Source: a virus
Reading direction: 5' to 3' (one strand)
IMG/VR virus record: IMGVR_UViG_3300010373_000020
Location: 1-42,648 of that record
DNA length: 42,648 bases
Shown: one piece after another, positions 702 through 40,215 of the stretch
How the letters are laid out: the number at the start of each line of letters is the position of its first letter
Numbering within the stretch: position 1 is the first letter of the stretch
Program-made: the position numbers and the translations under genes
Notes under the pieces: generated by a model
Database searches by the model: none
Told to the model about the DNA's origin: nothing
What the model saw: the letters and a program-made list of their open reading frames with translations, nothing else

Positions 702-1414
702 TTCGCGTCTTTGTGAACGTCGGACCAGAGACAGCCGTTGTCGGGATGCGATGGCTGCGAGGCACCGATGTCGGTAGTAACCCGCACATTGCACCACGCG
801 CACGAGCCGGACCATTCGCGGCTGAAGTTGCCAGTCCGCTTGAACCCGACGGTGCGCGTCGTCGCCAGCCACGGACTCGGCAGCTTCCTCACCCGCTCCC
901 GCAGCGTGGCCCCGTCCGACTCGGCTTGGCGCACGCGGGCGATGATCTTCTCGGCCAGCGCTCCGTAGTCGTCCACTTCGCCATCGAACAGGGCGGCGCT
1001 TAGGGTGTGAAGCGCCTTGAAGGATGCGGCGTGTGCCTCTGAAAACTCGCCGCAACGCACGACGAGCCGGTCGATTTCGGCCTTCGCATCGCTAGAGATC
1101 GTCTCGGCCTGCTCGGCACGGTGCAACAGCGTGGCCCCGTCAGCACGGAGACGCGAGACTTCCGCGAGAAGGTCGGGCACGTCGTCACGCGAATCAGCCA
1201 ATTTGTCTAACGTCTCTGCAATTCGGCACGCCCAACAGTGACTCGCTGGAAGGCGATATTCCTCATTCGGACTGAGACAGTAATCCGCAATCGTGTCGGC
1301 GTCATCGCGCAAGAGATCGGCCGTCCACGTCGCCTGTGTCTCTCGCCGCTGAATCTCCTTCAGCCGCTCCTCACTCATCCCCTCGGGCCGGGGCGCACTC
1401 TGGCTAGACACCAC
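698..1414 (-). CDS. Hypothetical coiled-coil protein with C-terminal Cys motif, about 238 aa
   Basis: GTG at 1414 (or 1411) is chosen because GAGGG lies 5-9 nt upstream and the start overlaps the stop of the upstream gene at 1404; ATG 1378 has no well-placed ribosome site. The middle of the protein is heptad-like and rich in Ala, Glu, Arg and Leu (for example LLAEVSRLRADGATLLHRA), indicating coiled coil. Early CWAC and late CAWC pairs may bind zinc. This looks like the phage ead/Ea22-like class of accessory early proteins, but I cannot name the family with confidence. Confidence 0.65.
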   Translation of the reverse strand: MVSSQSAPRPEGMSEERLKEIQRRETQATWTADLLRDDADTIADYCLSPNEEYRLPASHCWACRIAETLDKLADSRDDVPDLLAEVSRLRADGATLLHRAEQAETISSDAKAEIDRLVVRCGEFSEAHAASFKALHTLSAALFDGEVDDYGALAEKIIARVRQAESDGATLRERVRKLPSPWLATTRTVGFKRTGNFSREWSGSCAWCNVRVTTDIGASQPSHPDNGCLWSDVHKDAK

Positions 1415-2104
1415 ACATACCCTCACATTCCATCGCAGCGAACAGATTTGGATCATCGGCCTTCGGTGCCTCCGTGACGGCCTCCATCAACGGCACGCGC
1501 GCTCGGTGCATAAACTCTTGGGCGCGCATCCCTCGGCTGTGCCCCGTCCGAAGCGCCGCGTCTATCTGGACAGCATCTGCGAACTCGTTCGGGCGTTCGC
1601 GCTTCATCGTGCGCCAGAACTCACCGTCATGAAACGGGCAGCCGATACATGCCGACTTCGGCGGTTCTTGAAAGCCGTGCGCCTTGAGCCACGCCACGCA
1701 ATCGGTGCGCGACATGTTGCGTTCCACAAGCGGCCAGCGATTGACGATGTAGCGTTGCCGTGCGTCCTTCATCCGCGAGGCTTCGTCAGTGGAGATCCCA
1801 ATCCACATTTGGAACGTGCCGGCCGGGATGTGGTCACGCCGGCCAGCACCGATGATGCGCCGCAGTTCACGAGCAATCGGCTTGAGCTTGTATTCGGAAT
1901 GTGCATTGCCGTTGGCCCATCCCCCTTCGGCCGCGCTCGTCGAGCGTGAACCATGGGACCGCTGCGAATCGTTGCGCAGATGTCGCGCAACTCGGCCAAC
2001 ATCACCGTGCGTGTCGGCGTCGGATCGGTGCGAGATTGAATCTTCCAGCGCATGGTCATCGGGTCTTCCCACTGCACCGCAAACTTGTTAGCGAACCGCT
2101 TCAT
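1404..2104 (-). pseudogene. PAPS-reductase/PP-loop-like protein, C-terminal part, broken by two frameshifts
   Basis: Homology-like signal moves through three frames. ATG 2104, with a GGGAGGG ribosome site, opens a frame beginning MKRFANKF. Near 1965-1985 the signal passes to a second frame reading FAAVPWFTLDERG then RRGMGQRQCT. At about 1892-1895 one extra T moves it to a third frame reading SEYKLKPIARELRRI and on to the end. The last part has the CIGCPFHDGEFWR motif and KSACIGC context typical of phage adenine-nucleotide alpha-hydrolase (PAPS reductase-like) proteins. The SGGKDS PP-loop that should begin such proteins is absent. Either this is a decayed gene or the assembly has two base insertions. 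The intact third-frame segment (stop at 1404) may still be translated. Confidence 0.6.
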
Positions 2105-3068: not shown

Positions 3069-3298
3069 GTCGTCCTCGCGCCGGAGGGAGACTCGATCAC
3101 GTCCCAACTGCCAACTCGACGAAGGCCGCCAACGTAGATGCCGCCGTTCTCTGCGAAGTCGATGTCGCGTGAATTGAGCGCGTGTTGACGCTTCACTTCG
3201 TTGTAGAGCGAGTGATACGTCAACGGCCTCGGTAATTCCACTGACCAGGACTTGTGGCCCGCGCCGACATCCGTAAACTGCACTTGGACTGTCCTCAT
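3065..3298 (-). CDS. Hypothetical protein, 77 aa
   Basis: ATG at 3298 overlaps the upstream stop by 4 nt and its stop overlaps the GTG of the nuclease gene. The protein alternates hydrophobic and polar residues in its first third (MRTVQVQFTDVG, SWSVELPRPLTY), suggesting beta strands, and has a helix and a short GGIYVGGLRRVGSWDV segment. I do not recognise it. Confidence 0.65.
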   Translation of the reverse strand: MRTVQVQFTDVGAGHKSWSVELPRPLTYHSLYNEVKRQHALNSRDIDFAENGGIYVGGLRRVGSWDVIESPSGARTT

Positions 3299-3507
3299 CT
3301 CGTCACCAGCGCCAGATTCGTGCTCTTGACCCCTGACCGGCCGCAGACGCCACATTGCAGTTCCACGCTCCGGCACGTCGGCGTCTCCTCGCGTGAAATC
3401 TCGATCACCGTCGGGCCAGTCGGGCATTGATTCACCGGCCCGCACACGCAGGTCGTCAGCAGCCAGTTCGGTGATGGCGTGAGCGTGAAGCGATCCAGCT
3501 GCGTCAT
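3295..3507 (-). CDS. Small Cys-rich zinc-ribbon-like protein, 70 aa
   Basis: ATG at 3507 overlaps the upstream stop (3504-3506). Cysteines occur as TTCVCG, NQC, TC and QCGVCG, giving two CxC/CxxC knuckles separated by about 30 residues, consistent with one bound zinc. No family assigned. It is one of a run of four short coupled genes between the nuclease and the helicase-loader-like gene. Confidence 0.6.
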   Translation of the reverse strand: MTQLDRFTLTPSPNWLLTTCVCGPVNQCPTGPTVIEISREETPTCRSVELQCGVCGRSGVKSTNLALVTR

Positions 3508-3653
3508 GCCGACCCTCTCATATCGGACAATTGCGCCTCGATCCGCCGCACCATCGCTCGCTCGCGTGCCCAGCGCCGCCGATGCGCGACGCGACACCGC
3601 GCACAGCGGAGCGACCGACACAGCGCTCGACGGCCGCAGCGGCAGCGCCTCAT
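3504..3653 (-). CDS. Small Cys/Arg-rich protein, 49 aa
   Basis: ATG at 3653 overlaps the upstream stop by 4 nt. MRRCRCGRRALC...CARCR gives five cysteines in about 20 residues amid many arginines, then a basic helix. The pattern suggests a zinc-stabilised nucleic-acid-binding peptide. Because the region is extremely GC-rich the composition alone is weak evidence; the coupling on both sides is the main support. Confidence 0.55.
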   Translation of the reverse strand: MRRCRCGRRALCRSLRCARCRVAHRRRWARERAMVRRIEAQLSDMRGSA

Positions 3654-4231
3654 GACGCCTTCCTGGCCTGTTGCGCCGCCTTCCGGCGCGCAACAACCGG
3701 GTTCCGCTGCCAGCACGTGCAGCGGACGACGAACGTATGCGACGGATGGTTGTCGCGGCGGCCGCAGTGCTGCGCGTCGAGCTGCTGCTCATGCGGCGGC
3801 AGCGCCCGGCCGGCGTGCGGCCCCGACCCGCCGCAGCGCACCGTCTGCCAACCGCTCGGCTCGTCGTGACACGCCACGCAGAAAAAGCGCGGCCCGTCGT
3901 CGTCCGACTTCGGCTCGGGCAGCATCCGCGCGGCCTTCGCCACCGCCTCGTCCGCCTTCGCGATCTGCCCGACGCGCTCGCGGATCGCCGGCGCCGACGG
4001 GAGCGCCGATTCGTAGTCCTTCCGCGTGACGCGCGCCAGGTCGAAGCACGCACGCTCGACCATCACCGGGTCGAGATCGCCGAGCGCGTCCTGATAGACC
4101 AGCACCGTCGGGGTGTCGATGCTCGATCCGCGCGCCAGGGCGAGCTGCGCGACGGCCCAGCCAATCGCCTCGGTGCTGTCCAATTCGGGCAGCGCGTTTG
4201 GGCGCGTGAAGCGCGAGATCGCCGTCGTCAC
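3650..4231 (-). CDS. Probable replicative helicase loader (G39P/DnaC-type), 193 aa
   Basis: GTG at 4231 overlaps the stop of the initiator gene (GTGA). The N-terminal half is helical: WAVAQLALARG, a pair LDPVMVERACFDLAR, then a PSAPAIRERV segment. This matches the pattern of phage helicase loaders, in which a helical bundle ends with a PT/PSxxEIR-like turn. A C-terminal FFCVACHDEP...RCGG...CTCW region adds a zinc ribbon. Its position immediately after an initiator-like gene is the classic O-P or gp39-gp38 order. No helicase gene was found in the window, so it presumably recruits the host DnaB. Assignment rests on pattern and context. Confidence 0.5.
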   Translation of the reverse strand: MTTAISRFTRPNALPELDSTEAIGWAVAQLALARGSSIDTPTVLVYQDALGDLDPVMVERACFDLARVTRKDYESALPSAPAIRERVGQIAKADEAVAKAARMLPEPKSDDDGPRFFCVACHDEPSGWQTVRCGGSGPHAGRALPPHEQQLDAQHCGRRDNHPSHTFVVRCTCWQRNPVVARRKAAQQARKAS

Positions 4232-5130
4232 ACCTGCCTCCGCGCGGCGAAGGCAGCGCTCAACGCCGCCATCGTCGAGTGGCCTTTCGTGTGCGGCGAC
4301 GGCGCGGCCGGCGCGACGGCGGGGTGTGCGGCGGCCCACACGGCCCGCCAGAAGTCGTACGGCTTGTCGCCGGGCACTCGGTCGCCGAGCGTGCTAATCG
4401 TCGCGTCTACGAGCCGCGAGACGTGCGCCTCGGCCTCCGTGCGGTCGCCGCCGAGGCGTAGGTACCACTCCTCGGCCAGCTTCGGCGGCACGCAGATCCC
4501 GCGCTCGCACGCCGCCCAGGTGCCCTGCGGGCAGAGCGTGTGATTGCCCATGAGGCCCGTGCGGGGCCGTGGCTTCGGTCGCGTGAAGCCGCCGGCTGGC
4601 GCGATGGCGATTGGTTCTCTCGCGCTCTCTCCGGTAGAGCCAGATCCCGCAGACTCAGACTCATACGCAGACTCATACTTCGCGTCCCGCCCGCGCGCGC
4701 GTAAGGGCGTCTGAATGGATTCCGACTCGGAATCCGGCCGGACAGGCCGAATGGATTCCGACTCGGAATCCGGCCGGACAGGATCGACCTGTCCACCGCG
4801 CCGCGCTTGCTTTCTCACTCGATCCTGATGTTGGTATGCCTGCACCTGGGCCTTCGTCGGGTTGTGGTCAAGGAAGTCATGGATTCGAAAACCCTCAGAC
4901 TCGACGCTCCATAGCCCGACGCGCACCAGTTCGCCCGCTAGTGCGTACGGCCCCCGCTGACCCGCCACGAGCGTCGCGACCTTGGCCCGCGGGATAAACC
5001 CGTCCGTGAGCGTGCGACGCGCGTAGAGCAATCCTGCGAGCCACAACCACCCCGCCTGTCCGACCTGCGGGCCGAGGTTGAGAAACTTCGGATGGTCCGT
5101 GAGGCAGTCATCAATCGACGCTTTGCCCAT
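4228..5130 (-). CDS. Replication initiator-like protein, 300 aa
   Basis: ATG at 5130 follows the upstream TGA directly (TGATG) and has AAGGGG upstream. Residues 1-95 look like a winged-helix domain: FLNLGPQVGQAGWLWLAGLLYARR, DGFIPRAKVATL, LVRVGLWSVE, GFRIHDFLDHNP, the pattern of phage replisome-organiser proteins. A hydrophilic middle contains an exact tandem repeat, PVRPDSESESI, at residues 117-127 and 129-139, coded by DNA with inverted repeats (candidate origin). The C-terminal half has a TLCPQGTWAACERGICVPPKLAEEW segment and a helical end. As with lambda O, the protein probably binds iterons within its own gene and recruits the next-encoded loader. Confidence 0.65.
   Translation of the reverse strand: MGKASIDDCLTDHPKFLNLGPQVGQAGWLWLAGLLYARRTLTDGFIPRAKVATLVAGQRGPYALAGELVRVGLWSVESEGFRIHDFLDHNPTKAQVQAYQHQDRVRKQARRGGQVDPVRPDSESESIRPVRPDSESESIQTPLRARGRDAKYESAYESESAGSGSTGESAREPIAIAPAGGFTRPKPRPRTGLMGNHTLCPQGTWAACERGICVPPKLAEEWYLRLGGDRTEAEAHVSRLVDATISTLGDRVPGDKPYDFWRAVWAAAHPAVAPAAPSPHTKGHSTMAALSAAFAARRQV
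4713..4794. other. Candidate replication origin: tandem iterons with inverted repeats
   Basis: Inside the initiator gene a 36-bp unit begins at 4713 and repeats from 4749. Each copy contains the near-perfect palindrome GATTCCGACTCGGAATC (4718-4734 and 4754-4770; arms of 8 with a single central base). Directly after them lies a third inverted repeat, GGACAGG-5-CCTGTCC (4776-4794). Tandem palindromic iterons in the middle of an initiator gene are the arrangement of lambda ori within O. There is no obvious AT-rich unwinding element beside them. Confidence 0.5.
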
Positions 5131-5438
5131 CAGTTCCGCCCCTTGACGACGCACATGTGTCGGATATTGTCAATCGGTTCAGTAGCGCGCGCGTGCGCGA
5201 TCTCGGCGAGCGCTCGCGTGGCCTTCGCGCGGGCGTGCGCCGCCTGGCCACGTTCGCGCCGCAGTCGCGCGACGACCTTCGTCTCGTCGTAGCCGGAGAA
5301 CCGGACGGAATGGCGCAGCCGGCGCGACAGGCGCGCGTCACGGATCGCGACCATCCGGTGACGGCGGTCAATGCCGCGGCGGAGAACGACGACCCACGCG
5401 CCGATGAGCGCCGCAAAGACGACAGCGATGGCGGTCAC
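5130..5438 (-). CDS. Small membrane-anchored protein, 102 aa
   Basis: GTG at 5438 overlaps the upstream stop by 4 nt. Residues 1-20 (VTAIAVVFAALIGAWVVVLR) form one clear membrane segment. The remainder is strongly basic and helical (RDARLSRRLRHSVRF, ARLRRERGQAAHARAKATRAL), predicted to lie in the cytoplasm by the positive-inside rule. Family unknown. Its site between pentapeptide and replication genes suggests an early membrane function such as exclusion or tethering of replication, which is inference. Confidence 0.65.
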   Translation of the reverse strand: MTAIAVVFAALIGAWVVVLRRGIDRRHRMVAIRDARLSRRLRHSVRFSGYDETKVVARLRRERGQAAHARAKATRALAEIAHARATEPIDNIRHMCVVKGRN

Positions 5439-5950
5439 GCGGTCGCTCCTGAGAACGCTGCGCGCATCCGCAGCAGCCAGTCCTCCACCCACTCAGCCGC
5501 GAGCCTGGACGGTTCGTGATTGTCCGGCGTCTGACCGGGCTTGATCTGGAGGAACCACACCTCTGAAAGTCGCGAGGCGTTCGGCGCGAGATTCGGGATC
5601 TGGTCGTAGGCGCACTGCCGCACGTTCGCTAGTGTGCCGACCAGACAGGCGCAGGCGCCCTCGTAATGCGACCCGTCGATGCGCCCTTCCTTGATTGCTG
5701 AAAGGAGCCCTGGCACTTCGGCCGGCGACGCCGACAGCACAGCCCAGAGATCATCGCGAAACTGGGACTTGAGCGAATCAGAGAGGTTCGCCTCCGAGAG
5801 GTTCGCCCGCGAGAGGTCCGCCTCCGAGAGGTTCGCCCCCGAGAGGTTCGCCCGCTCATCCAGCGCCGCGTGGATCGCGTCGCGCATCGTCTCGGCTTCC
5901 CCGCTCCAGATCACTGCGTTGGTAAAGCGATTCACGATCGTGCGTGTCAC
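5435..5950 (-). CDS. Pentapeptide-repeat protein, 171 aa
   Basis: ATG at 5950. Residues 35-59 are five consecutive A(N/D)LSx pentapeptides (ANLSG, ANLSE, ADLSR, ANLSE, ANLSD), coded by five 15-bp tandem DNA repeats at 5781-5855. Pentapeptide repeats form a right-handed beta-helix; some mimic DNA and inhibit gyrase, but this array is short. A helical C-terminal domain follows, with KEGRIDGSHYEGACACLVGT, similar to a domain seen after pentapeptides in several phage proteins. Function unknown. Copy number of the 15-bp repeat could vary by slippage. Confidence 0.75.
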   Translation of the reverse strand: MTRTIVNRFTNAVIWSGEAETMRDAIHAALDERANLSGANLSEADLSRANLSEANLSDSLKSQFRDDLWAVLSASPAEVPGLLSAIKEGRIDGSHYEGACACLVGTLANVRQCAYDQIPNLAPNASRLSEVWFLQIKPGQTPDNHEPSRLAAEWVEDWLLRMRAAFSGATA

Positions 5951-5969
5951 TCCCCACCTCCAACCGTCG

Positions 5970-6422
5970 TCAAGCCAAGTGCGCTTTCGATTCCCAGGAC
6001 CGGAGCACCCTGCCGGTCTCGGCGTCGGTCAACCAAAACGTCAGCGTCTCGTTCGCGTGGCCCGCGCAGTGCAGCCGCTCGGCGCGCAGGCCGTGGATCA
6101 GGTCGTGCGCTTCGGGCGAGAGCGTGGCGATGTTGTCGAGCTCGTCTGAGCCGCCCCGCGACCGAAAGATGACGTGGTGCGGGTGCATCGCCGTCAAGTC
6201 GCCTTCGTAGCGCGGCTTCAGCCGGAGCGGCGTCCCAAAGGCCCGGCAGTGGCCGTGGTCGCGTTTGTAGGCTTCGGCCTTGCGGACTTCCCACGCCGCG
6301 GCCGCGTCGCGCTCGGCCTTCCGTGCGGCCTTCTCGGCTTCCGCTCGACGGACCGCGCGGCGATGCCGCAAGCCGTCGCGGAAACTGCCCGCCTCCGGCT
6401 TCCAACTCGGTTCGAGGCTCAC
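5970..6422 (-). CDS. HNH endonuclease, 150 aa
   Basis: GTG at 6422 overlaps the upstream stop (GTGA). An Ala/Arg/Glu-rich helix (residues 20-55) precedes the HNH core: RDHGHCRAFG, then MHPHHVIFRSRGG (His82, His83), ELDNIATLS (Asn97) and EAHDLIHG (His106/110). The first zinc knuckle of the usual CxxC is reduced to a single Cys (CRAFG rather than CRxCG), so metal support of the fold may be lost. Such proteins may be free-standing homing nucleases or packaging-associated nickases. It lies in the recombination block rather than beside the terminase, favouring the former or a recombination role. Confidence 0.75.
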   Translation of the reverse strand: MSLEPSWKPEAGSFRDGLRHRRAVRRAEAEKAARKAERDAAAAWEVRKAEAYKRDHGHCRAFGTPLRLKPRYEGDLTAMHPHHVIFRSRGGSDELDNIATLSPEAHDLIHGLRAERLHCAGHANETLTFWLTDAETGRVLRSWESKAHLA

Positions 6423-6901
6423 GAGACCATCTCCAGCGGCCGAGCCTTCGCGGCCCGCTTGCGCTCACGCTCTTTCCGCTCCCGATACTCCCGCGGCGCC
6501 TCGAGCACCACGCCGCACTCGGCGGCGATCTCCAGCGTCCGTTCGATCAGTTCGGCGTACTTCGCCCGACTGAGCGTCGACGTGTGCGACTCACGCAGCA
6601 CCATCGAAATTTCGCCCGTGATCGGGTTCGCGTGTTCTTGTTCGCCGAAGACTTCGCGCAGGATGTCGCGCTTCAGGTCGTCGATCCGGTGCCCCTCAGA
6701 CCGCGCCCAGGGCGTGATCATTGCGTGGAAGCCCGCTTCCTGAAGGCGCGTCTTCAGCGCGCCAGGTCCGGCGACGATGACGTCGACGCACTGCCCGGCG
6801 TACTTCGCGCGGCAGTAGGCGCGCTGCTGGGCTGGGAAATCAAGATGAATGCGGCCATCCGCATCGACCTTGCCCACGAAAACGGCGGGGTCTTGGCTCA
6901 T
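6419..6901 (-). CDS. Possible NinB/Orf-like recombination protein, 160 aa
   Basis: ATG at 6901. The sequence contains MITPWARSEGHRIDDLKRDILREVFGEQEH, then a PITGEISMVLRESHTSTLSRAKYAELIERTLEIAAECGV segment. A conserved small phage protein with this W...LK...FG...STSxLS...Y...IE pattern lies near recombinase genes and resembles NinB (lambda Orf), a mediator that loads annealase onto single-stranded DNA. Its location two genes after the exonuclease-annealase fits. I identify it by pattern only; a homology search is needed. Confidence 0.45.
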   Translation of the reverse strand: MSQDPAVFVGKVDADGRIHLDFPAQQRAYCRAKYAGQCVDVIVAGPGALKTRLQEAGFHAMITPWARSEGHRIDDLKRDILREVFGEQEHANPITGEISMVLRESHTSTLSRAKYAELIERTLEIAAECGVVLEAPREYRERKERERKRAAKARPLEMVS

Positions 6902-6906
6902 CGGCG

Positions 6907-7389
6907 TTAAAAGGGGATGTCGTCGTCGCGCGGGTCGCGCTCGTCGGCGCCGCCGGCCCAGCCGTTATCTGTCGGCGCCTGCTCGTGCGTCTGCGCGTGC
7001 CGGCCGTCTCTGATGCGCTTCGCCCAGCCGCGCGCCCGCGCCGCGTCCAGCCGCTTGTAGGCACTCGCCGGCTTGCCGTTCGAGGCTTTTTCGCCCTTCT
7101 CGTCGGCCTGCTCGGCGAAGTAGTCGAGACGCGCCGCGACCATATCGAGGTAGTCGGGCGGGCATTCCGAGAATCGCCGGCCCTTCATGGTCGGACCCAT
7201 CCAGTCCCGCGGGTCTTTGGCCTTAACTTCAGGATCGCCGTACTTCCCATCGAGGTCCGCATCGGGGGCGGCGACCCTCCCAGGCGCGCCGCCCCCGGTG
7301 TGCCCTGCGGCGCCCTGCCGCAGTTCGCGCAGGATGTCTTTCAACGTCTCGTCGATGGAGCGCAGCACGTGCAGAGCGTCGGTGGACAT
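6907..7389 (-). CDS. Protein with SSB-like acidic C-terminal tip, 160 aa
   Basis: ATG at 7389 follows the fusion gene directly. The first 22 residues are helical, then a Gly-rich linker, then a compact central part (WMGPTMKGRRFSECPPDYLDMVAARLDYFAEQADE). The last residues are RDPRDDDIPF, which is the terminal acidic tip by which SSB proteins dock to replication and repair enzymes. A standard OB-fold cannot be seen, so it may be a non-canonical ssDNA-binding or SSB-mimicking protein. Being next to the annealase supports a role in recombination on single-stranded DNA. Confidence 0.6.
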   Translation of the reverse strand: MSTDALHVLRSIDETLKDILRELRQGAAGHTGGGAPGRVAAPDADLDGKYGDPEVKAKDPRDWMGPTMKGRRFSECPPDYLDMVAARLDYFAEQADEKGEKASNGKPASAYKRLDAARARGWAKRIRDGRHAQTHEQAPTDNGWAGGADERDPRDDDIPF

Positions 7390-8829
7390 CTACGCCGCCT
7401 CCCGCACTTCGGCCAGCTCTTCCGGCGTGTAGAGGCCCGCGAGCAGATCCGGGTAAATCATCCGCGCGAGGCGCGACGAGCAGCGCGCGACCAACATGTC
7501 GGTCGGCACGCGGCCCCACCCGCTCTTGTCCCACGCCTCTTGAGTCTTCGGCCCCCACGCGGCCTTGGTGCCGTCCTTGATCGGCCACGCCTGCTTCGCC
7601 ATCTCAATCGTGTGCGTGAGCCGCATCGGATTACGCGCGCCCTTGCGCTTCGTCTCGTAGGTGACAGACGTTTCTGAGACTTCAATCGGCTCGAAGTACT
7701 CGGCGATGCCGGCCTTCAGCACCAAGCCGACCATGAGGGACGCGGCCAGGGCGTGTTTGCCTTCGAGGTTGTAGATGCACCGCAGGGAGGCCATCGCGGG
7801 TAGCCCGAGTTCGCGGCCGACCATGACCGTCGACAGCACCGCCTGCGGCGAGCCGTAGGCCGAAAACATTCGCGACTTGAACATGTCCTCGGCGAGCATC
7901 TGCGCCTGCCGCATCGACCGCGGGTCGAGCTGCCGTTCGTAGTCCTCCGGCGCCGGGGCCAGCACGTCGGCGTCGCGCGCGGGGGCTGGCACGAGCGACA
8001 AGAGTTCCGGCGTCGCAGCCTCGGTCGCCATCGGCGCTTGCGGGAGCGCGCGTGGCTTCAGCACGGCGTCGAAGTCAATCGGCGGGTCGGTGCTGAGCGC
8101 GATCAGGCGCCGCGCCAGCGCACGGCCGCCCTGCGCGTCGAACTCGTGCAGCGCCTTCGCCTTCGCGGGCGTGATCCCCATCGAGACGGCGCCCTGCACT
8201 TCCAGGCGCTCGTAGATGGCGTCGAGCGACCCGTGGCGCGCGAGCAGGTCCGCCGCGCTCTTCTCGCCGATGCCCGGTGCGCCCTTGACGTTGTCGGCCG
8301 AGTCGCCGACCAGACACAGGAAGTCGAGCATCTGTGCCGGTGTGACGCCGAACTTCGCTTTGACGGCGTCGGGGTCGACGAGCGATCCGTCACGGACGCT
8401 CTTCGCCTTCACGCGGTCGCCGACGAGCTGCAACAGGTCTTTGTCGGCCGAGACGATGACGACCGTTGTGTCCTCGTCGAGCGCGAGCGCCTTCTCGGTC
8501 GCCGCCGCGATCACGTCGTCCGCCTCAAACCCCTTCGCCGACCAGACCGGGAAGCCGTCCGCGAGCAGCACATCAGCCGCGAGCGCGATCTGGTGCTTCA
8601 GCGTGCCGTCTTCCTCCGGCCGGTTCGCCTTGTAGGTCTCGGCGATGTCCTTGCGGAACGAGCGCCCGGCGTCGCAGCAGATCGCGACGTGCGGCGCGCC
8701 GTTGGCCAGCGCCCTGACGCGCGCGACGATCTGCGTCGAGGCGTGATTCGGATCGGGCTCAGACTGGCTCGTGTGCCAGATCGGGTAGGCGATGGAGGAC
8801 AGGTCGATGAGGACGATTTCGCGCGCCAT
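7390..8829 (-). CDS. Fusion of 5' flap exonuclease (FEN) and RecT-family annealase, 479 aa
   Basis: ATG at 8829. Residues 1-260 are a PolI-type 5' nuclease: IDLSS (Asp9), CCDAG (Asp53), GFEADD (Glu102, Asp104, Asp105), SADKD (Asp129, Asp131), GDSADN (Asp176, Asp179) and the helix-hairpin-helix KGAPGIGEKSAADLL; the complete acidic metal-binding set is present. Residues 261-297 are an Ala/Pro linker. Residues 298-479 follow the RecT family: MLAEDMFKSRMF, VMVGRELGLPAMASLR, LEGKHALAASLMVGLVLKAG, VPTDMLVARCSSRLAR and PDLLAGLYTPEEL. One chain thus joins end resection with strand annealing, jobs done by two proteins in lambda Red or RecET. The frame is unbroken over the joint. Confidence 0.88.
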   Translation of the reverse strand: MAREIVLIDLSSIAYPIWHTSQSEPDPNHASTQIVARVRALANGAPHVAICCDAGRSFRKDIAETYKANRPEEDGTLKHQIALAADVLLADGFPVWSAKGFEADDVIAAATEKALALDEDTTVVIVSADKDLLQLVGDRVKAKSVRDGSLVDPDAVKAKFGVTPAQMLDFLCLVGDSADNVKGAPGIGEKSAADLLARHGSLDAIYERLEVQGAVSMGITPAKAKALHEFDAQGGRALARRLIALSTDPPIDFDAVLKPRALPQAPMATEAATPELLSLVPAPARDADVLAPAPEDYERQLDPRSMRQAQMLAEDMFKSRMFSAYGSPQAVLSTVMVGRELGLPAMASLRCIYNLEGKHALAASLMVGLVLKAGIAEYFEPIEVSETSVTYETKRKGARNPMRLTHTIEMAKQAWPIKDGTKAAWGPKTQEAWDKSGWGRVPTDMLVARCSSRLARMIYPDLLAGLYTPEELAEVREAA

Positions 8830-8831
8830 GG

Positions 8832-9155
8832 CTACTCACCCTCCCGGTGCGGTGCGGCCGTCTCGAGATCGCCATCGGCTTCGTAGTCGGCCCGGACGAC
8901 GGGCTCGAAGCACGCTTTGCAGAGGCACGTGCGCCGCCCCTCGTCGCCTTCGCGGAGGGTCGATTCCACGCGGCATGCCGGACAGACCGCCTCGCCGCAG
9001 TCGGCGCAGCGCGGGAGCGGTTCGTAGCGGTCGCCGAAGCCGCTGCACTTGTCGCAGGCGTCGTGCCCGACCGGCACGCGCCGGACGGCTTGCGCGGGCC
9101 CGTGACAGATTGCCGCGGCGGCTTTGAGAGTCATCGTGCTAGAATTGGTGGTCAC
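8832..9155 (-). CDS. Zinc-binding Cys-rich protein, 107 aa
   Basis: GTG at 9155 is chosen because AGGAG lies 8 nt upstream; ATG 9134 has no such site. The middle holds two or three zinc knuckles: CDKCSG, CADCGEAVCPAC, then CLCKAC, an arrangement like a DnaJ-type or double zinc-ribbon domain. The C-terminus is acidic. Directly upstream of the exonuclease-annealase gene with a 2-nt gap, so co-expressed. The function may be nucleic-acid binding; family not identified. Confidence 0.65.
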   Translation of the reverse strand: MTTNSSTMTLKAAAAICHGPAQAVRRVPVGHDACDKCSGFGDRYEPLPRCADCGEAVCPACRVESTLREGDEGRRTCLCKACFEPVVRADYEADGDLETAAPHREGE

Positions 9156-9207
9156 TTCGTTTGCTCCTGTTTGTCGGGGTCGGCGTTCCCGCGCCGGCCC
9201 TTTTCGT

Positions 9208-9315
9208 TTACCGCCAGAACTTCCACCGTCGACACTCACTCGGCGCCGGCGCGATCCACAGCACGGCGCAACCGACGATGGCCACGATGAGCGCCGCGCG
9301 CACCAGTTCGATCAC
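9208..9315 (-). CDS. Tiny membrane protein 3 of 3, 35 aa
   Basis: GTG at 9315 overlaps the previous stop (GTGA) and has GGAGG 5 nt upstream. VIELVRAALIVAIVGCAVLW forms a single membrane helix, followed by a short basic tail (SECRRWKFWR). Too short for routine annotation; supported by ribosome site, overlap and the matching architecture of its two neighbours. Confidence 0.55.
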   Translation of the reverse strand: MIELVRAALIVAIVGCAVLWIAPAPSECRRWKFWR

Positions 9316-9410: not shown

Positions 9411-9507
9411 GGCGTCGTCCTCTCGCGCCGCGCACGAACCACGCGGCGAACACGAGCGCGCCACACCAGGCCGCCACCACGAAGACCGTCGCGACGACGG
9501 CGATCAC
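9403..9507 (-). CDS. Tiny membrane protein 1 of 3, 34 aa
   Basis: GTG at 9507 overlaps the stop of the excisionase-like gene (GTGA). The hydrophobic run AVVATVFVVAAWCGALVFAAWF forms one membrane helix and the end is basic (RGARGRRRD). It stands first in a chain of three overlapping micro-genes with the same layout. Confidence 0.55.
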   Translation of the reverse strand: MIAVVATVFVVAAWCGALVFAAWFVRGARGRRRD

Positions 9508-9728
9508 GCCGACACCTGCCGCGCTTTGCGCGACCCGCGGCCGAACGCCACGACCGACTCGCCCGCTAGGAACCGATCCACCAGCACGCGCGAGTAGCGG
9601 AACCGGCCGATCGGGCGGCTGACTTCCAAGAACCGGAACTCGCCCGCCTTCTGGTGGGCGTAGAACGGGGCTTGCGACATCCCGAGCCGGCGCATCAGAT
9701 CGCCGGGCGTCATCGGCTTGTCATTCAC
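9504..9728 (-). CDS. Excisionase-like helix-turn-helix protein, 74 aa
   Basis: GTG at 9728 forms a GTGA overlap with the preceding gene. MTPGDLMRRLGMSQAPFYAHQKAGEFRFLEVSRPIGRFRYSRVLVDRFLAGE is a MerR/excisionase-type winged helix (HTH_17 pattern: helix-turn-helix, then a strand pair carrying basic residues, then an R(Y/F)S..lvdrfl helix). It is in the early leftward operon about 3 kb from the attachment site, so it could direct excision or act as an early regulator. Confidence 0.65.
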   Translation of the reverse strand: MNDKPMTPGDLMRRLGMSQAPFYAHQKAGEFRFLEVSRPIGRFRYSRVLVDRFLAGESVVAFGRGSRKARQVSA

Positions 9729-10093
9729 TGATTCACCGCCTGCTGAGAAATCTCGATGCTCGTGTTGACCCGCACCCCGACCGCGCAGGACTTCGCCAAC
9801 GAGACGACCAACTCCAGCCGGAACCGATCGCCCAGCATCCACAGACGCGCGAAGTTCGGCGTCTCGTCTCCGGCGATCCACGCGCTCAGCGTGCTCTGGC
9901 CCGATTCGGCGTAGCCCATCGCCAGCGACGCGGCCTTCTTTTCGATCCCGCTGCGTCTCAGCGCTTCCTCGATCGCCACGCCAATCACGCGGTTGAACTC
10001 GTCCTTCCGAAGCGGCTTCGGATCGGCTTTCGCCTCCATCCGCAAACTCTTCGGATGCACGTCGCCCAGGCGATCGGCCACGCTAGCGGGCAT
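9725..10093 (-). CDS. DNA-binding regulator, possibly CII-like, about 122 aa
   Basis: ATG 10093 gives 122 residues; ATG 10039 (104 residues) is an alternative, and neither has a strong ribosome site. The centre contains a helix-turn-helix-like part: EEALRRSGIEKKAASLAMGYAESGQSTLSAWIAGDETPNFARLWML, with the amphipathic pattern of regulators such as CII or phage P22 C1. It follows the Cro-like gene in the same direction, the position of cII after cro. Target unknown. Confidence 0.55.
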   Translation of the reverse strand: MPASVADRLGDVHPKSLRMEAKADPKPLRKDEFNRVIGVAIEEALRRSGIEKKAASLAMGYAESGQSTLSAWIAGDETPNFARLWMLGDRFRLELVVSLAKSCAVGVRVNTSIEISQQAVNQ

Positions 10094-22546: not shown

Positions 22547-23779
22547 ATGGTCACAAAGCCCAACGCCGACAACGTCCTGCGCGCGGCCGTGCGCGCCGTG
22601 GAGAAGGCCGACGGACACCGCGGGCGCGCGGCTGTGGCGCTCGGCATCCCGGTCGGGACGCTCAAGGATCGCCTCCGGCAGGCCGTCACCAGCGGTCTCA
22701 TTCAGGCGTTCCCGCGGACGTTCTTGGCGACCCGGTACGCCGCCGAAGGCGAACGCCCGGAGCAGACGATCGATGACGACCTCGCGCGGCAGAAGTCCCG
22801 CGTCGGCCAGAAGGACGTCGAGCGCAAGTACCAGGAGTCGCTGGCGACCATTGACGCGCAGCGCCGGGCGCTCGAAGCCTCCTACGCGCTTGCGCGGCCG
22901 GTCGAGACGGTCGTCATCGAGCCGAAGCACGGCGGCAGCACGTCGGAAGCGACGGCCATCGCGCTCGCGGGCGACTGGCACATCGAGGAGGAAGTCGGCA
23001 AGGAAGTCGGCGGCCTGAACGTCTACAACCTCGACATCGCGCAAGCCTGCGCGGCGCAGTTCTTTCGCGCCGTCGTCAGCCTGACGCGCATGTCGCAGCA
23101 GGACGTCAAGATCGAGCACCTGGTCCTCGGCCTGCTCGGCGACTTCATTTCCGGCGACATTCACGACGAGCTGCGCGAGCGGTGCCAGCTCCGGCCGACC
23201 GAAGCGATCGTGATGGCGCAGCGGATGCTCGTGTCGGGCATCGAGTTCATCCTGAACCACTCGAAGGTCAGCATCCTTGCCGTGTGCAAGTCGGGGAACC
23301 ACGCGAGGACGACGAAGAAGGTCTTTGTCTCGAACGAGCAAGGGCACTCGCTCGAATACCTGATGTACCAGCACTTGGCCGCGCACTTCCGGTCCGAGAA
23401 GCGGGTGCAGTTCCAGATCGACGAGTCGTACCACTCGTACGTCCAGATTTACCGCGAGACCGCGGCCTTCCACCACGGGCACCATGTCAACTATCAGGGC
23501 GGCGTCGGCGGCCTGACGATTCCAATGAACAAGGCGATCGACCGGTGGAACGAAGCGCGACCGGCCACGGTGTACTTCAACGGCCACCATCACACGTCGC
23601 TCGACGGGGAGCGGTTCGTGTCCAACGGCTCGATGATTGGGCACTCGGCCTTCTCGGTCAGCATCAAGGCCCCGTACGGCGAGCCCCGGCAGTGGTTCAA
23701 CCTGATCGACAAGCGCCGCGGCCGCACGGGCCGATGGCCCATTCTCTTCGACAACCGAAAGGCGACTCGTGCGGCGTAG
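22547..23779 (+). CDS. Calcineurin-like metallophosphoesterase with N-terminal HTH, 410 aa
   Basis: ATG at 22547. Residues 10-60 form a helix-turn-helix (AVRAVEKADGHRGRAAVALGIPVGTLKDRL); residues 75-120 a helix with charge repeats; then the metallophosphoesterase motifs AGDWHIEEE (Asp143, His145), LLGDFISGDIHDE (Gly198, Asp199), SGNHAR (Asn251, His252), AFHHGHH and FNGHHHT (347-349). All five metal-binding blocks are present, so it should hydrolyse phosphodiesters or monoesters, possibly on DNA given the HTH. Such enzymes occur near portal genes in some phages; role in packaging or end-processing is inference. Confidence 0.78.
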   Translation: MVTKPNADNVLRAAVRAVEKADGHRGRAAVALGIPVGTLKDRLRQAVTSGLIQAFPRTFLATRYAAEGERPEQTIDDDLARQKSRVGQKDVERKYQESLATIDAQRRALEASYALARPVETVVIEPKHGGSTSEATAIALAGDWHIEEEVGKEVGGLNVYNLDIAQACAAQFFRAVVSLTRMSQQDVKIEHLVLGLLGDFISGDIHDELRERCQLRPTEAIVMAQRMLVSGIEFILNHSKVSILAVCKSGNHARTTKKVFVSNEQGHSLEYLMYQHLAAHFRSEKRVQFQIDESYHSYVQIYRETAAFHHGHHVNYQGGVGGLTIPMNKAIDRWNEARPATVYFNGHHHTSLDGERFVSNGSMIGHSAFSVSIKAPYGEPRQWFNLIDKRRGRTGRWPILFDNRKATRAA

Positions 23780-40137: not shown

Positions 40138-40215
40138 TGGTGGCGGGGGCGGGATTTGAACCCGCGGCCTGCTGGGTATGAGCCAGCCGTTCTAACCGGG
40201 CTGAACTACCCCGCA
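40138..40215 (-). tRNA. tRNA-Met(CAU)
   Basis: On the minus strand 5' acceptor TGCGGGG (40215-40209), D arm GTTC...GAAC, anticodon stem GCTGG/CCAGC around loop CTCATAC (anticodon CAU), variable AGGCC, T arm GCGGG-TTCAAAT-CCCGC, 3' acceptor CCCCGCC, A, encoded CCA. All stems pair except T1 with C72. The anticodon stem lacks the three GC pairs of initiator tRNA, so an elongator Met, or an Ile tRNA with modified C34, is meant. Confidence 0.88.

Follow-up and report, generated by a model that had tools for sequence, protein, structure and literature searches.

The window analysed here, by which we mean the whole stretch of 42,648 bases, is the metagenomic virus record IMGVR_UViG_3300010373_000020 of IMG/VR. 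Its minus strand carries, at positions 7390–8829, a single uninterrupted open reading frame of 479 codons that encodes a 479-residue protein, with the ATG at 8829 and the stop codon at 7390–7392. A ribosome-binding-like stretch, GGGAGGGTGA, is found upstream of the ATG. The plus strand of 7390–8829, read in the same frame, is broken by stops. The encoded protein joins a PolI/FEN-type 5′ nuclease domain to a RecT/Redbeta-type annealing core, and is referred to below as the FEN-RecT fusion.

A 5′ nuclease domain and a RecT/Redbeta-type core in one chain

The nuclease domain comprises residues 1–258 (8056–8829, minus strand). The Pfam N- and C-terminal domains of PolI-type 5′–3′ exonucleases (PF02739, E 2.3e-30, 105.9 bits against a curated cut-off of 34.3; PF01367, E 9.5e-19, 68.1 bits against a curated cut-off of 40) together span residues 5–254, and PHROG 107, an exonuclease family, matches the same half with E 3.5e-39. 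This half displays a PIN-like core, the arch-region residues R59, Y66, K67 and R70, nine acidic residues and an H3TH motif. In an alignment with Taq, D9, D53, E102, D104, D105, D129, D131, D176 and D179 coincide with the nine acidic residues of that enzyme, which we take to be the metal ligands of the FEN family, and Y66, K67 and R70 coincide with its YKxxR motif. The nine acidic residues show no variation across 89 fusions wherever the sequence covers them. An AlphaFold model, built from an alignment of 42 fusion sequences (mean pLDDT 89.4), consists of two confident domains and an intervening stretch near residues 262–297 at about 40–63 pLDDT; the FEN half is mostly above 90. Fold matches of this half (VIA) include plastid exonuclease 1 (9l55, Z 28.9), E. 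coli ExoIX (3zdd, Z 27.5), the M. smegmatis flap endonuclease (26.3), the T5 5′-exonuclease (1exn, 25.4), Taq (20.9) and EXO1 (7mxw, Z 14.5), with superpositions on 9l55, 3zdd and 1exn giving an rmsd of 1.9–2.2 over 241–252 residues. By profile, residues and fold, this half belongs to the PolI/FEN-type 5′ nuclease family; its nuclease activity is inferred.

Since the FEN half took all of the VIA rows, that search was uninformative on the RecT half, residues 297–479 (7390–7941, minus strand). PHROG 4171 (RecT-like) matches residues 304–474 with E 4.6e-18, and PHROG 561 matches with E 3.4e-10. Lambda Redbeta (7ujl) was recovered both by profile (E 1.2e-3) and by fold with Foldseek (E 1.4e-3, probability 1.00, TM 0.61 by target). 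The Pfam RecT model PF03837 stayed below threshold (13.6 bits versus a cut-off of 24), as it likewise did for the stand-alone protein annotated as RecT in phage Jolie2. PHROG profiles and fold place this half among the RecT/Redbeta annealases of the Rad52 superfamily; annealing and oligomerisation are inferred.

The two halves are connected by a disordered, Ala/Pro-rich linker, residues 261–296 (7942–8049, minus strand; pLDDT 40–63). Among relatives the linker is hypervariable in length (about 38 to 193 residues) and sequence. Shortly after the FEN domain, a recurrent acidic motif resembling DDI(D/E)xAMPTL was observed in ten of the related linkers (L001, L002, L005, L044, L065, L067, L068, L072, L076 and L082); it is not present in the linker of the window, and might be an interaction motif. 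We also considered that proteolysis of the linker, or an internal translation start, frees FEN and RecT as two products and renders the fusion mechanistically meaningless. In support of this alternative, a Shine-Dalgarno-like stretch precedes an in-frame ATG or GTG in or near the linker in 35 of 44 sequences. Against it, synonymous resampling predicted 44.4 ± 4.9 such sites where 47 were observed, the linker of the window has no such start, and no conserved cleavage site was noticed. An internal start was rejected, as the sites match what amino-acid composition gives, and the two-product reading as a whole is very improbable.

An initial annotation, made from sequence alone, had described this protein, and its structural claims held. 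The coordinates 7390–8829 were exact, although no strand had been named and the frame is on the minus strand. The union of a PolI/FEN-type 5′ nuclease with a RecT-family annealing domain in one chain was upheld by profiles, fold and structure prediction, each half being placed in its family, and the presence of all nine expected acidic residues was upheld by the alignment with the Taq 5′ nuclease. A 37-residue Ala/Pro linker was likewise confirmed (residues 261–297, 46% Ala+Pro, predicted disordered). A stop or frameshift near 8049 would have refuted the claim; none was found, and the search for the same fusion in other phages returned 89 distinct sequences in which it is continuous. As the source is a metagenomic virus record, a chimeric assembly or an overlooked frameshift could be proposed. 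This explanation is all but excluded, because the 89 continuous fusions lie on independent contigs, most of them with the same conserved neighbour.

Genes surrounding the fusion

That neighbour is a 160-residue partner gene (6907–7389, minus strand) that directly abuts the stop codon of the fusion; its relatives sit downstream of most fusions. The reverse search, starting from the partner gene, found a fusion at 43 of 53 partner loci, most of the others being truncated by, or close to, the end of their contig. At one locus (L166) the partner gene lies beside a stand-alone RecT with another exonuclease. The protein has a predicted N-terminal helix, a conserved helical core and an acidic C-terminus ending in DDDIPF. 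E. coli SSB ends in the same tip. In the alignment of the partner family, 22 of 27 members end in F or W, compared to 5% of open reading frames; the tails read DDDIPF, DDEIPF, EGQIKW and similar. The partner could not be assigned to a known family, and its model, which is helical, had no PDB fold match at E <= 0.001; the OB-fold SSB domain PF00436 had no match anywhere in the window.

Next in the same direction is a NinB/Orf-like recombination mediator (6419–6901, minus strand; PHROG 72, E 7.5e-8), conserved in two of the related loci (L061 and L062). The same early gene block encodes, also on the minus strand, an HNH endonuclease (5970–6422; Pfam and PHROG) and a replication initiation protein (4228–5154; PHROG 2447, E 1.5e-22). 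A pentapeptide-repeat-like stretch, ANLSEADLSRANLSEANLS, was seen at 5435–5950 (minus strand), and a phosphoadenosine phosphosulfate reductase-like gene at 1404–2072 (minus strand; PHROG 424, 1.2e-24) lies near the end of the block. Immediately upstream of the fusion is a small cysteine-rich protein, zinc-ribbon-like in translation and without a clear family (8832–9239, minus strand), and an excisionase/HTH-like protein (9504–9881, minus strand; PHROG 66, E 8.9e-5) heads the block. Farther away, a tRNA-Met (CAT) gene occupies 40138–40215 (minus strand). The window holds integrase and repressor-like genes, from which we infer that the source phage is likely to be temperate; a tyrosine integrase is present in 12 of 26 fusion records.

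Distribution, trees and the RecT C-terminus

Scans of viral contigs yielded 152 loci with both domains in one open frame, a count in which some contigs appear more than once and the window itself accounts for two. The distinct fused proteins number 89 (83 clusters at 90% identity), and come from viral contigs and one MAG contig. The latter (L119), a 3.8-kb contig of a Thermoanaerobaculia bin, carries the fusion together with its neighbour gene and may be a binned phage. A first scan of genome contigs gave no match, and a second gave three loci, only L119 being fused. Isolate phages and plasmids contained no match covering 80% of the fusion chain, and blastn of the locus against phages found none. 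A 69%-coverage match listed under a Listeria phage name (L117) was examined and is not a fusion, and an 827-residue frame (L120) was dismissed when Pfam found no nuclease domain in it. UniProt entry A0A6J5MUB0, a 462-residue protein of an uncultured Caudovirales phage, aligns over the whole chain with 42% identity, and is very likely the same FEN-RecT fusion. It is annotated by its nuclease half alone, as 'PIN_53EXO domain containing protein', and we found no description of it as a fusion.

Close pairs of fusions gave dN/dS values of 0.09–0.36 for FEN, 0.02–0.35 for RecT and 0.12–0.71 for the linker, some of the underlying dS values being near saturation; both halves are under purifying selection. 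In the RecT tree all fusions constitute one clade (SH-aLRT 91), the sole non-fused rows within it (L041, L060 and L066) being truncated by contig ends. The 44 fused sequences also group as one clade in the FEN tree (93), and this clade lies closer to the PolA-type nucleases of bacteria than to the common stand-alone phage FENs. With the fusions forming one clade for either half, a single ancient fusion event is the simplest reading; the trees were quick, made without bootstraps and midpoint rooted.

When more rows were added to the FEN tree, two extra FENs fell inside the fusion clade (99). The first (L219) belongs to a 744-residue frame at 4899–7130 of IMGVR_UViG_3300021178_000012 that fuses a FEN of this clade to an annealase resembling Sak4 (PHROG 124, 2.3e-19), which has the Walker A motif GRSGIGKT; a Cys-rich stretch separates the two parts. 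This architecture is confined to one contig, the search having found no other relative. The second, L230 (4998–5726), is a stand-alone FEN that ends at the domain boundary and has no RecT found within 5 kb; it could be of the ancestral, unfused type or have arisen by loss. A third arrangement, at 3271–5711 of IMGVR_UViG_2928234723_000001 (L238), comprises RecT, NinB/Orf (PHROG 319, 3.3e-6) and FEN as three consecutive separate genes, its FEN lying in a different part of the FEN tree. Thus the same functions also travel together unfused.

The fused RecTs stop no more than 8 residues past the core (43/43), that of the window ending right after it. Stand-alone RecT relatives continue for 57–249 residues beyond the core (23/23). 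Neither count is phylogenetically independent. In Redbeta, annealing does not depend on the C-terminal region, but dsDNA recombination does, and the region takes part in binding the exonuclease (PMC5052646); host SSB is a further binding partner of Redbeta (PMC9772228). By analogy with Redbeta, the simplest reading of the missing extension is that the covalent tether rendered a docking domain unnecessary.

Among annotated actinophages, the stand-alone RecTs closest to the fused ones are accompanied by an ExoVIII-type exonuclease, either adjoining or nearby (3 of 3 RecT-bearing actinophages). No YqaJ or ExoVIII-type match was found in the window, and no YqaJ, DUF3799 or ExoVIII-type exonuclease was found in the 26 fusion records under conditions in which control genomes did match; exactly one FEN match was present in each of the 26. 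Taken alone, the absence of ExoVIII proves little, because ExoVIII is also absent from eight viral records with a stand-alone RecT. Among the late genes, a metallophosphoesterase-like gene (22547–23779, plus strand) contains the motifs GDWH, GDFISG, GNHAR and GHHH and matches PHROG 284, 'exonuclease' (4.6e-39). As the real exonuclease partner it was set aside, being present in the window and only one of the 26 fusion records.

Possible mechanisms and relation to known systems

We favour, with a probability of roughly 0.56, the interpretation that the fusion is a single-chain resect-and-anneal recombinase, a version of the phage exonuclease-plus-annealase ('SynExo') pair. On replicating phage DNA, the FEN-type domain would degrade the 5′ strand at ends or nicks; the RecT domain, held nearby by the flexible linker, would bind the 3′ strand on exposure, oligomerise on it and anneal it to a complementary strand. 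The tether would do the work of the docking domain at the C-terminus through which Redbeta-type annealases bring in their exonuclease, and the SSB-tailed small protein and NinB/Orf would probably assist at DNA coated with SSB. Computation shows the two domains, an active site that is intact, selection on both halves, the lost extension, a conserved gene neighbourhood and no detected RecE/YqaJ-type exonuclease; nuclease and annealing activity, the order of steps and the roles of the neighbours are inferred, none of the activities having been measured. The consecutive separate genes of L238 and the FEN-Sak4 fusion of L219 lend this interpretation support. Against it stand the occurrence of the clade's FEN without RecT in L219 and L230 and the eight stand-alone-RecT records without ExoVIII. 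PolI-type 5′ nuclease domains, to which the FEN half is most closely related, prefer flaps and nicks to blunt ends, so this half may not start resection at a double-strand break. Moreover, RecT-family proteins act as many-subunit filaments (PMC9772228), and one nuclease per annealase therefore exceeds what resection needs.

A serious rival, ranked below resect-and-anneal and best regarded as possible, is that RecT anneals single strands, for example at lagging-strand gaps, and the tethered FEN then removes the displaced 5′ flap for ligation, resection being performed by host enzymes or not needed. In its favour, the FEN half resembles the PolI/Xni/FEN flap nucleases and retains the arch residues Y66, K67 and R70, and having a nuclease on every filament subunit makes more sense for trimming along annealed DNA than for resecting a single end. 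In poxviruses, loss of G5, a FEN1-like flap endonuclease, impairs the repair of double-strand breaks (PMC9415595). Against it, FEN is the only known resection candidate in most fusion records, as neither the window nor the 26 records yielded a RecE/YqaJ-type exonuclease, and the missing docking extension suggests that FEN replaces a docked resection enzyme. The sequence cannot separate resect-and-anneal from anneal-then-trim, since FENs are capable of either reaction and a RecT filament would bear many nucleases; the two are not mutually exclusive.

A role in replication, in which FEN removes primers or Okazaki flaps, RecT only localises FEN to ssDNA and recombination is secondary, appears unlikely. 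The replication initiation protein in the same gene block speaks for it, and stand-alone phage FENs, T4 RNase H and T5 D15 among them, function in replication. However, the window gave no match to a family A DNA polymerase, purifying selection acts on a RecT core that is complete, and the neighbouring NinB/Orf points to recombination.

Like resect-and-anneal as proposed here, lambda Red (Exo plus Redbeta) and RecET pair a 5′–3′ nuclease with an annealase of RecT/Redbeta fold, and NinB/Orf is nearby as in lambda. In contrast to these two-gene systems, the fusion is one polypeptide, its nuclease is FEN-type instead of a PD-(D/E)XK exonuclease, and its annealase lacks the C-terminal extension that docks exonuclease and SSB. 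The RecE-like exonuclease and RecT pairs of actinophages (Gordonia Adora and SmokingBunny, Mycobacterium Jolie2 and Thermobifida P1312) have a homologous RecT core (about 30–33% identity) beside or near a nuclease gene, but the genes are separate, the nuclease is ExoVIII-type (PHROG 412) and RecT has a long C-terminal extension. The PolI 5′ nuclease domain, E. coli ExoIX/Xni, M. smegmatis FenA, T5 D15 and T4 RNase H share with the FEN half the fold, the nine acidic residues (checked against Taq), the arch lysine/arginine and H3TH; none of them is joined to an annealase, the PolI domain being joined to a polymerase. FEN-superfamily nucleases do work with strand annealing in the eukaryotic succession of EXO1 and RAD52 and in T7 gp6 with gp2.5. 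Unlike the fusion, these and poxvirus G5 (PMC9415595) act as separate proteins, and the T7 and poxvirus annealases come from other families.

These comparisons bear on the remaining claims of the initial annotation. That an annealase normally lies beside a separate exonuclease of another type held for the nearest stand-alone actinophage RecT relatives. That FEN-type enzymes are not the usual partner needs qualification, as they have a viral recombination record (poxvirus G5, T7 gp6 with gp2.5). The suggested direct hand-over of resected DNA is an inference only; FEN-type enzymes are equally flap endonucleases, and trimming after annealing remains live.

A bolder reading, which we hold to be less likely than not, is that FEN-annealase fusions are a separate viral recombinase class. 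An in-cis nuclease on every filament subunit would resect and/or trim flaps during pairing, the nuclease would be joinable to unrelated annealase folds (RecT here, Sak4 in L219), and a dedicated SSB-tail partner would replace the docking domain.

Neither the parts nor the combination of a 5′ nuclease and an annealase is new. No description of a FEN-RecT fusion was found in the literature searched, which excludes the majority of subscription papers as well as two SSAP surveys of central importance (Iyer 2002; Lopes 2010); within that scope the single-chain architecture and the fact that it is conserved, together with the missing docking domain and the partner protein, appear to be undescribed. 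How DNA passes from an exonuclease to its annealase has long been asked of lambda Red, RecET and the herpesvirus pair, in which the contact is weak (KD about 8 uM in Red; PMC5052646) and hard to study. The fusion fixes the pair at one to one without a docking domain, and hand-over therefore becomes testable by severing the linker or varying how long it is. The fusion also offers, in one chain, a natural counterpart to the eukaryotic route from EXO1 to RAD52. Because exonuclease-annealase pairs transfer poorly between hosts (PMC6093641), it is a candidate one-gene recombineering tool.
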